Shown piece by piece: positions 12,844-19,026 of a stretch of 38,090 nt of DNA. Under the pieces are notes generated by a model. It was not told the DNA's origin. It did not search any database and saw only the letters and a program-made list of their open reading frames with translations. The number at the start of each line of letters is the position of its first letter. Position 1 is the stretch's first letter. The DNA comes from a virus. A program made the position numbers and the translations under genes. The stretch lies in the IMG/VR virus record IMGVR_UViG_3300011115_000341, positions 1-38,090 of that record, one strand, 5' to 3'.

Positions 12844-12872
12844 ATCATACACCCTGTTGGTGGGTGTGTCCG
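12844..12872 (-). promoter_or_regulatory. Candidate late promoter for terminase, leaderless start
   Basis: Minus strand CGGACA (12867-12872), 17-nt spacer, TATGAT (12844-12849), then 9 nt to ATG 12834. Transcription would begin about 2 nt before the ATG, giving a near-leaderless mRNA; no Shine-Dalgarno sequence precedes the ATG. The spacer carries ACACCC-N7-GGGTGT, resembling the operator-like repeat of the capsid promoter at 159..189. The GTGTATGAT block recurs at 36450-36458. Confidence 0.55.
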
Positions 12873-12925
12873 TAGAGATAGTTTCGTCGGGTTACTAACT
12901 CCGGTTCTCCCCTCGCCCACCAACA
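12855..12925. repeat. 10-bp inverted repeat flanking 51 nt upstream of terminase
   Basis: TGTTGGTGGG (12855-12864) pairs perfectly with CCCACCAACA (12916-12925). The left arm overlaps the terminase promoter spacer. A near-copy of the left arm (GTTGGTGG-TGTGTC) occurs at 13667-13680, at the end of the clamp-like gene. It could be a paired binding site for a regulator or terminase, or a stem in RNA. A tRNA was considered and rejected. Confidence 0.6.
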
Positions 12926-13022
12926 TTAAAAACATCTGCTACACTCTCCAACACACTCGTCGGGATGACGACACACAAACACTTCACGGTCGTACCCTCG
13001 TTGCACAGGGCGGGACAATCAT

Positions 13023-13158
13023 CCACGGAAACGTGGTTCGATGAACTATTAACATAGATCAAGCAGCGAGCTGAACGCCATCTCAGCAAAACTTAAGGTG
13101 TCGGCTAAAACTCTTAGCTACGGCGACCTGCTCCTTAGAGCGAACCGTGGGGGGAGCA
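13023..13158. other. Cluster of potential hairpins (structured DNA or plus-strand RNA candidate)
   Basis: On the plus strand: CCACG-GAAA-CGTGG (13023-13036, perfect stem with a GNRA tetraloop); GCTGA...TCAGC near 13070-13088; GCTAA-AACTC-TTAGC (13104-13118) nested in GGT-GTCG...CGGC-GACC (13097-13128, one bulge); and TGCTCC...GGAGCA (13129-13158). The GNRA loop exists only on the plus strand. Individual 5-bp stems occur by chance; the density is what draws attention. No known RNA family recognised. Confidence 0.35.
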
Positions 13159-13319
13159 AACACCATCACAATCATTGGCCGCCATCACCCCAAGAGATAC
13201 ACATTTATGTATATATCTCCCAACACGATACAAAACCAAAACCACACACAGAAGTCAAACAACCACCCACCTCCCAAAGCGGGGGTTTGAACACGCTGAG
13301 TGACCAACAAAACCAAACA

Positions 13320-14287: not shown

Positions 14288-14490
14288 TGTGCTGTTCTCC
14301 TTGTTTGTTGGGTTGTTGTTTTTCGTGCGCGGTTGCGCTCGATCTGTGCGCGCCGGCGTTTGATTAGTTCGGCGTTGGTGTATTTGGTGCGGGGTTTGCG
14401 GTGGCTCATCAGCTCGCCAACGATTGCGCCGGCGATAAATGGTGATGCCATGACTAGCGCGGTGAGTGGAATAGATGTAATTTCGGTCAT
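14284..14490 (-). CDS. Small single-pass membrane protein with basic tail (68 aa)
   Basis: One membrane helix (about residues 8-28, PLTALVMASPFIAGAIVGELM) is followed by a very basic cytoplasmic-type tail (HRKPRTK...LIKRRRAQIERNRARK). The positive-inside rule puts the tail in the cytoplasm. It could bind DNA or RNA at the membrane. No family recognised. It overlaps both neighbours by ATGA. Confidence 0.6.
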   Translation of the reverse strand: MTEITSIPLTALVMASPFIAGAIVGELMSHRKPRTKYTNAELIKRRRAQIERNRARKTTTQQTRRTAQ

Positions 14491-14894
14491 TGTGCCAGCT
14501 CGTCTAGATAATCGGCTAACACTGGGTAGTTGTAGCGGATAGTCGCTTGGTCGGTGCCGCTGTACGTTGTTACGGCCACTATGTGGCCGTCGTTGCTGTC
14601 GCGTGTGATCTCACAATGAGGGCCGCCACAAGTGCGCAAGATTTCCACGCGGGTATTGTTGCGGTCATCTGTGCGCAAGATTTTAAGTTCTAGTACTGTT
14701 TCGTTTAGGTATTGGTTTACAATGTCGTAAGCGTCGAGATCCATGTCTGCGCCTAATTCGCTTACTGCTTCGGCATAAGCTGCGGCGGTTTCATCGTCTA
14801 GCTCGTGGCCGGCGGTGAGTAGGAACTCTAGCGCGTCTAATTCTCTGCCAATATTTTGACAATAGTCGCGGGCTGTGTCTGTTCTGGTGTTCAT
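14487..14894 (-). CDS. Unknown acidic early protein (135 aa)
   Basis: Acidic N-terminal half with predicted helices (RELDALEFLLTAGHELDDETAAAYAEAVSELGADMDLD), then a beta-rich C-terminal half (VEILRTCGGPHCEITRD...HIVAVTTYSGTDQATIRYNY). A single C-GGPH-C pair might bind metal. It is the first gene after the promoter at 14946..14974, and its start lies 6 nt after a hairpin holding GGGAG in the loop. No family recognised. Confidence 0.65.
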   Translation of the reverse strand: MNTRTDTARDYCQNIGRELDALEFLLTAGHELDDETAAAYAEAVSELGADMDLDAYDIVNQYLNETVLELKILRTDDRNNTRVEILRTCGGPHCEITRDSNDGHIVAVTTYSGTDQATIRYNYPVLADYLDELAQ

Positions 14895-14900
14895 TGTTTT

Positions 14901-14914
14901 AGCTCTCCCAAGCT
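14901..14914 (-). promoter_or_regulatory. Translation-start hairpin, Shine-Dalgarno in loop
   Basis: On the minus strand AGCT-TGGGAG-AGCT, 6 nt before ATG 14894. The loop TGGGAG carries the ribosome binding site. An equivalent hairpin with the same loop but a different stem lies at 16980..16995, so the pairing covaries while the loop is conserved. Confidence 0.5.
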
Positions 14915-14945
14915 GTACGCCCGTTTATTTTTCGTGCGCTTTAGT

Positions 14946-14974
14946 ATTGTGACCTATTTTTTAGAGTTTGTCAA
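14946..14974 (-). promoter_or_regulatory. Early promoter, sister of 17021..17049
   Basis: Minus strand TTGACA (14969-14974), 17-nt spacer ending in ATAGGT, then CACAAT (14946-14951). The -35 box lies inside the last codons of the preceding 66-aa gene. It shares -35 box, spacer length and ATAGGTCA with the promoter at 17021..17049. It drives the 135-aa, 68-aa and clamp-like genes. Confidence 0.75.
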
Positions 14975-15161
14975 GTATTATTTTTATTTTTTTGCGGGGC
15001 ATTGTGGCGAGCTGTTGAGCTGTTGCCGCGTGTGCGGGGATTAGCGGCACGATCACGCCGGAACGAATGCCGGCGAGATAGTCGCGAGCGGCGGCGAGTG
15101 TGTCGAAGTGGCCAACAGTGAGTTGGCCGGCGGCGGTTTGTATTTGTATTAGGTATGTCAT
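14961..15161 (-). CDS. Small unknown protein (66 aa)
   Basis: Starts at ATG 15161, inside a 15-bp palindrome. The sequence suggests a compact beta-alpha fold (TYLIQIQTAAGQLTVGHFDTLAAARDYLAGIRSG) and a basic C terminus (MPRKKIKIILDKL). No family recognised. An upstream in-frame TTG (15191) is a poorer start. The palindrome over the start codon suggests that the gene is repressed, perhaps by its own product. Confidence 0.55.
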   Translation of the reverse strand: MTYLIQIQTAAGQLTVGHFDTLAAARDYLAGIRSGVIVPLIPAHAATAQQLATMPRKKIKIILDKL

Positions 15162-15165
15162 ACCT
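15151..15165. promoter_or_regulatory. Perfect palindrome over a start codon (operator candidate)
   Basis: AGGTATG-T-CATACCT, 7-bp arms around one central base, overlapping ATG 15161-15159 of the 66-aa gene and abutting TATACA on its upstream side. The size and symmetry fit a dimeric repressor site. It lies between the 66-aa gene and the outward-facing plus-strand promoter at 15185. Confidence 0.55.
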
Positions 15166-15184
15166 GTATAGAGCGTCTTTCGGC

Positions 15185-15213
15185 TTGACAATGTAAAGAC
15201 TATTTGCTATACG
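15185..15213 (+). promoter_or_regulatory. Strong plus-strand promoter with no gene behind it
   Basis: TTGACA (15185-15190), exactly 17 nt, TATACG (15208-15213). It is the best promoter-like match on the plus strand of a genome whose genes all lie on the minus strand. Predicted transcription would start near 15220 and reach the hairpin at 15284-15322 about 100 nt later, giving a possible short antisense or regulatory RNA. Confidence 0.55.
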
Positions 15214-15283
15214 AACATTTGTTTGTTTACTAGCCGGTAACTTTTTTGTGCTTTCGCGGTTAGTCGTGTTGTGGTGCCGGTAG

Positions 15284-15322
15284 CGGTAGTGGTGCCAGCT
15301 TGGGAGTGTGACACCACTACCG
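15284..15322. terminator. 11-bp GC-rich hairpin between small genes
   Basis: CGGTAGTGGTG (15284-15294) and CACCACTACCG (15312-15322), a perfect stem with a 17-nt loop, begins 8 nt after the stop codon of the minus-strand gene at 15330. It could end that transcript and also the plus-strand transcript from 15185. There is no T tract on either side. Confidence 0.55.
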
Positions 15323-15329
15323 GTACGTG

Positions 15330-15500
15330 TTAGCGGCGGTTTTGTTGGTGGCGGTAGGCCAAGTGTATGAATGGGTAGATCGAGATGAGCATTGTTGCCC
15401 ACCATAATCTGCCAGCGTTGGCACCTACTGTCACAACACATATTGCTGCGGTGATGATGATAGTGGTGGCGGTAGCGCGGAATATGAGACTGTCGGTCAA
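15330..15500 (-). CDS. Small membrane protein, TTG start (56 aa)
   Basis: TTG start overlapping the stop of the preceding gene. Two hydrophobic segments (FRATATTIIITAAICVVTVGA and RLWWATMLISIYPFIHLAY) make a two-pass membrane protein with a basic C terminus. No family recognised; it might be a small inner-membrane or exclusion-type protein. The start is uncertain because the ribosome binding site is weak. Confidence 0.5.
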   Translation of the reverse strand: MTDSLIFRATATTIIITAAICVVTVGANAGRLWWATMLISIYPFIHLAYRHQQNRR

Positions 15501-15700
15501 GAGTTTTCGCCGTTCTCTACGTCGAACGCTTCGACTTGCCACGCGCCTGCTTCTTCCATATCTAGCCCGTGATAATCTTTCAGTTGCCATATTGCGGTTG
15601 CTTCGGCTTGTTCTTCGTTCTCTGCGGTTACATTGGTGATGAGACTGAAGTAATCGCCTATAAACCGTACGCACCACTCTTTTTCGGTTATTGTTTTCAT
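15497..15700 (-). CDS. Small acidic unknown protein (67 aa)
   Basis: ATG 15700 has a good ribosome binding site (AAGGGG, 7 nt) and overlaps the upstream stop (ATGA). The protein reads as a mixed alpha/beta domain with aromatic residues (EKEWCVRFIGDYFSLITNVTAENEEQAEATAIWQL) and an acidic C terminus. No family recognised. Confidence 0.6.
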   Translation of the reverse strand: MKTITEKEWCVRFIGDYFSLITNVTAENEEQAEATAIWQLKDYHGLDMEEAGAWQVEAFDVENGENS

Positions 15701-15936
15701 TGGTTGTCCCCTTGTGTCAGGCAGTCTAGGTATAAGTTTTCTCGTTCGACTGATGAACAATCGTTATCCTCACACGAACACCAACCAAATATCGCTATCT
15801 GGCGTTCGTGCGTGAGGTCAAGTAGTTCAGACTGGAAATATGACCGTTGTGACGGGTTAGTTAGACAGTCGGCACATAGCTTGCCGGTTAGGTGGGGACA
15901 GAACCCCCATTGTGCTACAAATTGTTTTGTTTTCAT
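15697..15936 (-). CDS. Cys-rich small protein (79 aa)
   Basis: Six cysteines (C-PHLTGKLC-ADC and WCSC-EDNDC-type clusters plus LDC) suggest a zinc- or iron-binding mini-domain. Starts at ATG 15936, overlapping the upstream stop, with AAAGG 7 nt upstream. Overlaps the next gene by ATGA. Function unknown. Confidence 0.6.
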   Translation of the reverse strand: MKTKQFVAQWGFCPHLTGKLCADCLTNPSQRSYFQSELLDLTHERQIAIFGWCSCEDNDCSSVERENLYLDCLTQGDNQ

Positions 15937-16232
15937 TGGTTGGCCTTTATGTATTGCCAGAATGCGGGCGCGGTTGTGTCTTGTGACATGTAGTGGTCAC
16001 TATTTTCGTTGGCGTATTCGTTGCGTTCACTGTCGGTCATAGTTTCCCAAGCGTCACAGTCATCTTGTGACCAATCGGTGGTGCTGATTAGTGCTATGCG
16101 TGACGCGTCACCATACGTGTTTTGTTCGGTGTCGAGGTACAGGGTGTGTGGGTAGTAGTCGTTCATGCTGTCGGTGTGCCGGTTTCGACCAAATATTTCG
16201 TCGGTGAATTGTTGTAATGCATGTAAGTTCAT
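15933..16232 (-). CDS. Unknown acidic early protein (99 aa)
   Basis: A strongly acidic, Asp/Asn/Thr-rich protein with several aromatic residues (DWSQDDCDAWETMTDSERNEYANENSDHYMSQ). Its charge is reminiscent of DNA-mimic anti-restriction proteins, but no family was recognised and that is only an idea. Start ATG follows AAGGAGACAGCACA, a leader repeated at two other starts in this block. Confidence 0.55.
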   Translation of the reverse strand: MNLHALQQFTDEIFGRNRHTDSMNDYYPHTLYLDTEQNTYGDASRIALISTTDWSQDDCDAWETMTDSERNEYANENSDHYMSQDTTAPAFWQYIKANQ

Positions 16233-16408
16233 TGTGCTGTCTCCTTGTAGGTTGCGATTAGTGTTCGTTCATTCCAGCCGATAATTTCTGCTTCGTGGCT
16301 TGCTGTGATGTAATCCATAGCGCATACCCCGTCGTGGTTTTCGTCGTAGGTTTCTATGGCCACAACAAGTGTTATCTCAATAAGTTTTGTTGTTGCTAAC
16401 GCTTTCAT
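16229..16408 (-). CDS. Small unknown protein (59 aa)
   Basis: Begins at ATG 16408, overlapping the upstream stop and preceded by GGAGACAGCACA. The sequence starts with a beta-rich segment (KLIEITLVVAIETYDENHDG) and ends in KETAQ, because the ribosome binding site of the next gene is encoded in its last codons. No family recognised. Confidence 0.55.
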   Translation of the reverse strand: MKALATTKLIEITLVVAIETYDENHDGVCAMDYITASHEAEIIGWNERTLIATYKETAQ

Positions 16409-16563
16409 TGTGCTGTCTCCGTTTCGTGTTGTTGAGTGTGGTATTCCAAGTCATCAGTTTCCCAATAGACGTAGATCATGCCGCAAGTAGCGCATTCGGC
16501 ACAAGGTGTGCCAGCTAGTTGTGACCGGTAGTAACGCCAAGCGGGTGCTGTAGTGGTGGACAT
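16405..16563 (-). CDS. Small zinc-ribbon-like protein (52 aa)
   Basis: Begins at ATG 16563, overlapping the upstream stop (TAATG). It contains CAECATC (C-x2-C-x2-C), a compact metal-binding pattern, followed by an acidic segment. It also ends in ETAQ from the repeated start leader. Function unknown. Confidence 0.5.
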   Translation of the reverse strand: MSTTTAPAWRYYRSQLAGTPCAECATCGMIYVYWETDDLEYHTQQHETETAQ

Positions 16564-16979
16564 TATTTGACCGCCTTTACAGTCACAGTGCTACCAGTTG
16601 GGCAATCATGGTGACTAAGTAGAGCTGATAATTCGTTGGTTGTTTCGTCAAATTGCCACTTCAGTATGTAATCGCCGTTCACAGTCATAGCACGTACAAG
16701 TTCTTCCTGATCGGCAACAACAAAAGTTCCGCCAACAGTTCTATTCCATAGGCCAATGCCCTGAATAGAAAACTTGTAGCCATGCTTCCATTCTCCATGC
16801 ACCAAGTGTTCTTCTTCTTCAGTGAATAGCGGGGTTACTGATTCCGAAAAATAACAAACATCATCAGACCAACAACCCCAACATTCGGGGGATTCTTCCC
16901 AATCGCCAGTTTCTTCGTTGTAAATAGCACACGTACAAGACGTTGTTATCGTGCCTTTATGTATTTGTTTGGTTGTCAT
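16563..16979 (-). CDS. Cys/Trp-rich unknown early protein (138 aa)
   Basis: The first gene behind the strong promoter at 17021..17049. ATG 16979 is chosen because GGGAG lies 7 nt upstream within a hairpin loop. The N-terminal 50 residues hold a Cys/Trp cluster (SCTCAIYN...SPECWGCWSDDVCY), probably a metal site, and the rest is beta-rich (GYKFSIQGIGLWNRTVGGTFVV). No family recognised. The position suggests an early host-takeover protein, by inference. Confidence 0.6.
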   Translation of the reverse strand: MTTKQIHKGTITTSCTCAIYNEETGDWEESPECWGCWSDDVCYFSESVTPLFTEEEEHLVHGEWKHGYKFSIQGIGLWNRTVGGTFVVADQEELVRAMTVNGDYILKWQFDETTNELSALLSHHDCPTGSTVTVKAVK

Positions 16980-16995
16980 ACACTCTCCCAAGTGT
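16980..16995 (-). promoter_or_regulatory. Translation-start hairpin, Shine-Dalgarno in loop
   Basis: On the minus strand ACACT-TGGGAG-AGTGT, immediately before ATG 16979. Same loop as 14901..14914 with a different, still perfectly paired stem. It presents or occludes the ribosome binding site. Confidence 0.55.
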
Positions 16996-16997
16996 TC

Positions 16998-17012
16998 CCC
17001 CGTCAAGCGGGG
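16998..17012 (-). promoter_or_regulatory. 5'-leader hairpin next to the predicted transcription start
   Basis: CCCCG-CTTGA-CGGGG on the minus strand, expected to lie within a few bases of the 5' end of the transcript from 17021..17049. A 5'-terminal hairpin can stabilise mRNA. Confidence 0.4.
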
Positions 17013-17020
17013 CTGATAAG

Positions 17021-17049
17021 AGTATGACCTATCGCCGGCAGAATGTCAA
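17021..17049 (-). promoter_or_regulatory. Strong early promoter
   Basis: Minus strand TTGACA (17044-17049), 17-nt spacer ending in ATAGGT, CATACT (17021-17026). It lies 3 nt after the stop of the preceding 42-aa gene and drives the small-gene block from 16979 downward. Confidence 0.8.
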
Positions 17050-18027: not shown

Positions 18028-18243
18028 TTAGAGTTCTACACCTTGTGCGATGTGGGTTCGTAACCGTGAGATAACCGATTCGGCTTGTTTCATGGTTGCT
18101 TTGATTGCGTCAAGTTCTTGTGCTAACGATTCGGCTGCATCCATGTAACGGTCACGTTCTTCTTGTAACGCTTGGTTGGTGACAGCGAGCGCGTCTACAC
18201 GATCCTGCCAGTATTCTAATTCAAACTCTGTGTCGTTGCTCAT
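18028..18243 (-). CDS. Coiled-coil small protein (71 aa)
   Basis: ATG 18243 follows AAGGAG by 8 nt. Almost the whole chain is a continuous heptad-like helix (YWQDRVDALAVTNQALQEER...SLAQELDAIKATMKQAES). Overlaps the end of the WhiB gene by 23 nt. Probably an oligomerising partner protein; function unknown. Confidence 0.6.
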   Translation of the reverse strand: MSNDTEFELEYWQDRVDALAVTNQALQEERDRYMDAAESLAQELDAIKATMKQAESVISRLRTHIAQGVEL

Positions 18244-18508
18244 GTCGTATCTCCTTCCGTTGAGCAGGGGTTGACCCACCCCATACTCCATAATTTATAT
18301 TGTTTACTACAGCAAAGTCAAGGCATTCTTTTTTTGCGGTGCAATCAAAACAAACTTTTCGTGCTTCACGAAGTTTGATGTGGTTGATCGCTGCTTCTTC
18401 AAATTCCATAAAAAACATTTCGGTGTCTGCGCCTTTGCAATTTGCATCCTTTTGCCAACCAAAATCGTTGTCTTTTAGTTCAAGAAAAAATCCCTCTAGC
18501 AAACTCAT
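18221..18508 (-). CDS. WhiB-family iron-sulfur transcription factor
   Basis: A 95-residue protein with all family hallmarks: four cysteines (C24, C53, C56, C62 counted from ATG 18508; C-x28-C-x2-C-x5-C) that hold a [4Fe-4S] cluster, the GVWGG turn (74-78), and a basic C terminus (RKEIRHEQRHR) for DNA contact. WhiB proteins are confined to actinobacteria and their phages and act with the housekeeping sigma factor; phage WhiB proteins have been linked to host gene control and superinfection exclusion. ATG 18508 is chosen because it overlaps the upstream stop (ATGA); ATG 18523 is an alternative. It is a strong indicator of host phylum. Confidence 0.93.
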   Translation of the reverse strand: MSLLEGFFLELKDNDFGWQKDANCKGADTEMFFMEFEEAAINHIKLREARKVCFDCTAKKECLDFAVVNNINYGVWGGSTPAQRKEIRHEQRHRV

Positions 18509-19026
18509 TTCGTCGTATTCCATGGACTCCAGCCTGCCACATCGAACAGTAGTTTGCCAGCACGTAGGTTTGTTATCGGGTTCATCAGTTCCTCCTGGGT
18601 ACATACTCCCATGCGGACACAGACAATTGCAAATTGGGTACGCTTCAAATCCCAGTTGATACCGTTGATTTGTAGCAGACCGCTATCAGACGGGTGGGAC
18701 ATGGTTGCCATACGAATCAGGTTGCAATCTTTGTCCACGATTGAGCCGCCGATACGGGTTGGGCATCCGCCGGACTCTCGAAGGATGATCTCACCTAAGC
18801 GTTTCCATGTTTTTGGCGGCCATCCTGCTTGGGCAGCTAGTTCAGGTAGCCATGAAATGTCGCCGTGACGGAACACGATGTCGGTTTCAGACACCCTCTC
18901 AGACGCACGGACAGCCACGCTAAGAGGTTCAAGGGTTGGCAAAGGGGCTTTGGCTGCTGAAGCGAGGCTGCCGAAGGTGATAATCCCTACCATAGAAACG
19001 GCAAATAGCCGTACAAGGTTTCGCAT
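18505..19026 (-). CDS. Secreted lytic transglycosylase / lysozyme-like protein
   Basis: Sec signal peptide (residues 1-24/27; basic MRNLVR, hydrophobic core, ASA-AKA cleavage region) followed by a lysozyme-fold domain. The catalytic glutamate is probably E84 in IILRESGG, with the substrate-groove motif GLLQINGINWD at about 116-126 and a C-terminal NLRAGKLLFDVAGWSPW typical of SLT-type enzymes. Cys 88, 101, 136 and 142 could form disulfides outside the cell. It cleaves the glycan strands of peptidoglycan. It lies in the DNA-metabolism block next to WhiB, not in the lysis cassette. ATG 19026 follows AGGAG by 6 nt. Confidence 0.8.
   Translation of the reverse strand: MRNLVRLFAVSMVGIITFGSLASAAKAPLPTLEPLSVAVRASERVSETDIVFRHGDISWLPELAAQAGWPPKTWKRLGEIILRESGGCPTRIGGSIVDKDCNLIRMATMSHPSDSGLLQINGINWDLKRTQFAIVCVRMGVCTQEELMNPITNLRAGKLLFDVAGWSPWNTTK

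Follow-up and report, generated by a model that had tools for sequence, protein, structure and literature searches.

A portable two-hairpin RNA leader with the Shine-Dalgarno sequence in a conserved loop, a possible translational switch at two early phage operons

The virus record IMGVR_UViG_3300011115_000341 (38,090 nucleotides, analysed over its full length and called the window below) has recognised genes on the minus strand only. Its two early operons each appear to start with a portable RNA leader, in which a sigma-70-type promoter is followed by a 5' hairpin (hairpin I), a second hairpin with the Shine-Dalgarno (SD) sequence in its loop (hairpin II) and the start codon. Covariation among related viral contigs demonstrates both hairpins to be conserved structures at the RNA level. 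We consider it probable that the whole is a portable two-hairpin RNA leader whose SD loop serves as a switch point, with an antisense RNA loop as candidate ligand.

At the first operon (promoter P1), hairpin II lies at 16980..16995 of the minus strand (ACACT-TGGGAG-AGTGT), directly 5' of the ATG at 16979 and with the SD sequence (GGAG) in its loop. Its counterpart at the second operon (promoter P2) lies at 14901..14914 of the same strand (AGCT-TGGGAG-AGCT), upstream of the ATG at 14894, again with the SD sequence in the loop. The initial annotation had described both hairpins, with their common TGGGAG loop and differing stems, exactly as they are found. Taken alone, the window makes a modest case: CTTGGGAG has 3 matches against 0.64 expected, a count that 2 of 100 shuffles reach, and the 38-kb record holds two copies of CTTGGGAGAG. 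The relatives decide the matter, since in them the hairpin goes far beyond chance and the ATAGGT shared by the two promoters does not. When they were searched for a TGGGAG loop with complementary arms before start codons, the pairing was kept. Across 25 distinct relatives all five stem pairs of hairpin II are doubly changed, with 28 compensated cells, and the covariation score is 0.677 versus 0.172 for shuffled alignments (0/500) and at most 0.091 for slid ones. The stems observed include ACACT/AGTGT, AACGCT/AGCGTT, GCACT/AGTGC, AGCT/AGCT, CCGT/ACGG, ACAGT/ACTGT, CTAGA/TCTAG and CTGAA/TTCAG, around a loop that is TGGGAG throughout except for TTGGAG in contig L043, where the stem is unchanged. 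The fixed loop and compensating stems had been taken as a sign of selection on structure, and the covariation strongly supports the view that hairpin II is a conserved RNA structure under selection.

Exact-pattern scans of IMG/VR yielded about 40 distinct leaders. Two points weigh against the structural reading: alignments A1 and A4 were partly gathered with a pairing filter, and contig L005 has an ordinary SD sequence in place of the leader. Because the first leader sets were picked by exact core patterns, plus at least 4 pairs in the scripts, the weightiest test is selection by hairpin I alone. All 17 distinct sites so chosen that have an upstream TTGACA carry hairpin II, 16 of them with the TGGGAG loop and one (L043) with TTGGAG. 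Loci were also gathered by gene homology: the first protein behind P2, used as query, led to seven viral contigs, six of which have hairpin II (in two of these the leader precedes a different gene just upstream).

Among hairpins of at least 5 bp before an ATG in 210 viral loci, many of which were retrieved by the TGGGAG motif itself, TGGGAG forms the loop in 33 and each other permutation of its letters in at most 1. As background, the promoter-core-ATG pattern was found in at least 119 bacterial stretches, with 8 having at least 5 pairs among the matches listed; these were considered as bacterial or prophage copies of the leader and judged to be chance matches. A scan with the closing pair swapped (ATGGGAGT) gave at least 120 matches. 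Among those listed, 4 have at least 5 pairs, and a single one of these is of the leader family, in contig L016, which was known already. Rfam covariance models gave no relevant match for the leaders.

Hairpin I of P1 (16998..17012, minus strand, CCCCG-CTTGA-CGGGG) is near the predicted 5' end of the transcript, in a leader with a predicted fold of -14.8 kcal/mol. Judged from the -10 box, transcription would start a few nucleotides from it. The P1-type hairpin I is 100% paired in 7 distinct relatives, with compensatory change at 2 of its 5 pairs. Hairpin I of P2 (14917..14939, minus strand) reads GCGC..GGCGT, and its relatives have GCGC/GCGC, GGCC/GGCC or GGCCATT/AATGGCC; overall, hairpin I comes in three sequence types. 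All leaders keep the order promoter, hairpin I, hairpin II, ATG, and P1-type and P2-type leaders often share one contig, P1 first. The two successive hairpins with which both early transcripts open would also suit an anti-termination signal that modifies RNA polymerase, like put of HK022. Put sites are sequence-specific, whereas hairpin I occurs in at least three unrelated sequence versions and the place of hairpin II is bound to the start codon, and we regard such a signal as extremely improbable.

Promoter P1 lies at 17021..17049 of the minus strand (-35 box TTGACA at 17049..17044, -10 box CATACT at 17026..17021) and P2 at 14946..14974 of the same strand (TTGACA at 14974..14969, CACAAT at 14951..14946). 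In both, a 17-nt spacer ends in ATAGGT and the -10 box starts with CA, as the initial annotation had stated; it had further proposed a regulon with a common transcription factor at ATAGGT. The 17 aligned P1 sites keep TTGACA and an ATACT-type -10 box, and AGGT ahead of the -10 box is found only at P1 of the closest relatives of the window. At P2, relatives have TATGATC where the window has ATAGGT, and close relatives have TCTAAT as -10 box (window: CACAAT). Moreover, the two spacers of the window differ from each other, ATAGGTCA is near chance (3 occurrences versus 0.71 expected, reached by 5 of 100 shuffles) and promoter-like sites are no more frequent in the window than in shuffles. Since ATAGGT is not conserved at P2 of the relatives, the common transcription factor is unsupported. 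The earlier interpretation therefore stands for structure under selection, by covariation, and falls for the ATAGGT regulon. A DNA operator, with a dimeric transcription factor bound to the inverted arms or to ATAGGT, could call on the presence of ATAGGT at both promoters of the window, but it is already disfavoured by the sequence evidence: P2 of the relatives lacks ATAGGT, and arms that vary around a constant "spacer" are the opposite of an operator pattern, which is why we favour an RNA element. We give the operator hardly any credence.

The genes behind the leaders are diverse. The first gene of operon 1 (16563..16979, minus strand, 138 aa) has no Pfam or PHROG match, and in most relatives this slot holds a different family; the first gene of operon 2 (14487..14894, minus strand) encodes 135 aa. 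Three families stand behind P1 leaders (a phrog_5162-like one in 15 contigs, the gene of the window itself and a third) and seven behind P2 leaders, which makes 10 protein families over P1 and P2. An ArdA anti-restriction gene follows the P2 leader in eight contigs (PF07275, E 3e-16 for L065). In the distant element L221, which to judge by its IMG identifier may be an isolate genome, a CACGT-TGGGAG-ACGTG hairpin precedes an ArdA-like open reading frame (ORF), an assignment based on the motif and on weak tblastn similarity to annotated ArdA. In L238 and L259, phages without detectable homology to the window, several genes carry a stem-TGGGAG-stem before the ATG. As far as sequence comparison can tell, these data demonstrate that the leader is a portable module, independent of the downstream gene. 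Because it persists as the gene changes and precedes ArdA in eight contigs, the slot behind it may mark unknown anti-defence genes.

At L259:6695, 7312, 8387 and 9256 and at L238:1906, a promoter-like TATGCGA box is followed by a terminator-like hairpin with a T-run, the stem-TGGGAG-stem and ATG. Gordonia and Streptomyces phages with ArdA were also considered as carriers of the motif and rejected, as their leaders are structured but have an ordinary SD sequence. In Gordonia phages DatBoi and Daredevil and Streptomyces phage Immanuel3 (L331, L332 and L333), strong hairpins and ordinary SD sequences precede many early genes, and in the first two a repeated ATTGC...GTTGTC frame often flanks the hairpins.

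Directly 3' of the last gene of operon 1 lies an inverted repeat (15284..15322, minus strand) with the apical loop CACTCCCAAGC at 15308..15298. With the flanking TG, this loop is an 11-nt complement to CAGCTTGGGAG of the P2 SD hairpin; its complementarity to P1 covers 8 nt. It was compared over 10 contigs in all, the subgroup of the window, and 8 of the 10 have a cognate P2 complement of 10–11 nt. The loop CAAGCT is paired with the P2 arm AGCTTGGGAG in the window and L056, and in L001 through a G-U pair, while the loop CAACGG is paired with the P2 arm CCGTTGGGAG in L002, L003, L025/L224 and L204, and in L202 through a G-U pair. The cognate loop-P2 energy is -211.8 versus -190.5 when permuted (p=0.009, a value that ignores relatedness and is underlain by few independent switches), and no preference is seen for P1 (p=0.28). 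Within these contigs, the comparison demonstrates that the loop-P2 complementarity exists and partly co-varies. The loop is a candidate antisense regulator and the best candidate ligand in the subgroup of the window; for the loop-binding control that the initial annotation proposed, the single candidate ligand to emerge is this RNA and not a protein. A stem-only scan for the inverted repeat found no contig without the CTCCCA loop, and the arms are rigid. The repeat was also considered as a gene start on the plus strand and rejected, as no ORF begins right behind the plus-strand copy at 15299.

Beyond the qualification of the p-value, several observations count against this candidate. In L203 and L250 the loop-P2 pairing extends over 7–8 nt only, and the inverted repeat lacks the run of U that intrinsic terminators typically have. 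In three contigs checked, loop and leader are 327–476 nt apart and therefore genetically linked. The loop is confined to the 10 contigs and absent from the GGCC-type group examined, so it cannot be the general ligand.

In the mechanism that we propose, hairpin I probably shields the 5' end of the mRNA. Hairpin II would show the ribosome-binding site in a defined shape that ribosomes can reach, and could be the switch point at which a trans-acting ligand competes with the 30S subunit. As operon 1 RNA accumulates, its loop, antisense to the loop and 5' arm of P2 hairpin II, would turn operon 2 off, and the same loop would shut operon 1 too, more weakly. Alternatively, it might keep the operon 2 part of read-through RNA from being translated. 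Loop-binding translational control of the early operons is plausible; a cross-operon RNA switch, in which the loop at the end of operon 1 silences operon 2 through its SD hairpin and the partners co-evolve, is put forward tentatively, as possible rather than probable.

In predicted folds the loop GGGA is unpaired (0.95–1.0) and the ATG, 4–11 nt downstream of the conserved 8-mer, is open (0.79–1.0). Such accessibility, together with a hairpin I close to the 5' end and the fast, strong expression that ArdA and other presumably early genes would need, also fits a constitutive element, in which the hairpins stabilise the mRNA and present the SD sequence without ligand or switching. We consider this rather unlikely. 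Conservation of the loop extends past GGAG to an invariant first U, although other genes of the phage make do with AAGGAG-type sites that have no hairpin; a merely accessible SD sequence needs no strictly paired stem, and the antisense loop would be left unexplained.

The host might supply a ligand for the SD loop. A WhiB-family regulator at 18221..18604 of the window (minus strand; PF02467, E 1.3e-17) is a hint of an actinobacterial host. A GGA in a hexaloop over the SD sequence is the architecture recognised by CsrA/RsmA proteins, UGGGAG fits NNGGAN with GGA at loop positions 3–5, the change in L043 (UUGGAG) lies at a free position, and CsrA was matched in 33 of 149 genomes sampled from the phylum to which WhiB points. 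However, the remaining 116 genomes had no match, the phage itself encodes no CsrA, each leader has a single GGA loop and the same loop occurs in the unrelated phages L238 and L259. Translational repression by host CsrA thus seems improbable to us. The leaders can also be likened to T4 RegB sites (PMC3014915) as control at the SD region, and a RegB-like endonuclease that cuts the loop GGAG would silence early mRNAs in the manner of T4. Known RegB enzymes come from T4-like phages, and PF10715 gave no match in the window, with the positive control likewise silent; we find such processing very improbable. As in the initiation hairpins of T4 gene e, local RNA structure would govern the SD sequence, with a possible read-through block, but here the SD sequence is shown in the loop and not buried in a stem. 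Plasmid anti-defence islands likewise have structured leaders (Frpo/ssi; PMC11541004) before exchangeable anti-defence genes such as ArdA; there, Frpo acts as a promoter in single-stranded DNA, whereas a double-stranded promoter and RNA hairpins are seen here.

The closest known kind is the start-associated sequence (SAS, GGGATAGGAGCCC), with the extended SAS (ESAS), of Cluster K mycobacteriophages (Pope 2011, PMC3203893; PMC11373665), which is also present in Cluster EF Microbacterium phages (PMC7302621). The SAS was described in 2011 with its role then unknown, and papers of 2020–2025 still call it unclear; although its outer parts are symmetrical, its authors termed the site non-palindromic, and they doubted pairing between the ESAS repeats (PMC3203893). 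In both systems, of actinobacterial phages, a conserved ribosome-binding element with complementary outer arms around the SD sequence stands right before the ATG of unrelated non-structural genes, with a SigA-like promoter and an inverted repeat immediately upstream. In contrast to the SAS, the loop here is UGGGAG and not AUAGGAG, the stems vary freely, the 13-bp sequence GGGATAGGAGCCC is not matched by the leaders of the window even with up to two deviations, and there are 2 copies per genome instead of 11–19. Moreover, the inverted repeat is downstream of the promoter, whereas the 17-bp ESAS repeat contains the SigA promoter. Because these sequence and copy-number features fail, we do not file the leader family as SAS, and propose that it works like SAS.

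The leader family supplies the variable stems that SAS lack; variable stems give covariation, and covariation reveals an RNA hairpin that carries the ribosome-binding site in its loop. A like reading is possible for the Cluster K arms. In six Cluster K genomes ATAGGAG with GGG/CCC arms occurs 88 times. A few of the 24 deviant sites have arms that differ altogether and yet pair (Pixie TCGG/CCGA and GTAC/GTAC, Kratio CTGG/CCAG, Aminay GGCC/GGCC), and most single deviations are uncompensated. These swaps are suggestive, though not proof, that Cluster K SAS are hairpins. The leader family gives a testable model for SAS-type elements and a candidate ligand. The proposed SAS factor DUF3310 (PMC11373665) gave no match, with the positive control likewise silent.

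The recognised minus-strand genes of the window include terminase, capsid and recombination genes besides the WhiB regulator. Among annotated phages no close relative was found by DNA; the structural proteins match Immanuel3-group phages of Streptomyces at about 27%. Among 396 genomes of the phylum that were searched for a host, a single weak capsid match came up.

Between operon 2 and the gene for the terminase large subunit, the window has a candidate structured non-coding RNA of about 250–350 nt (12850..13240, minus strand), with DNA identity of 84–89% to close and 72–79% to distant relatives. It would form 7 local helices with 41 pairs, 23 of which have compensatory changes (mean of 8.9 in shuffles, 0/500), and its covariation is 0.393 versus at most 0.112 when slid. 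It has no Rfam 15 match at E<=5 and none in 396 genomes of one phylum; to judge from where it lies, it may be a packaging, origin or regulatory RNA. A further TTGGGAGA at 13223 (minus strand), 5' of this candidate RNA, is followed by a GAGATATATACA..TGTGTATCTC hairpin and is kept in L001 and L003.
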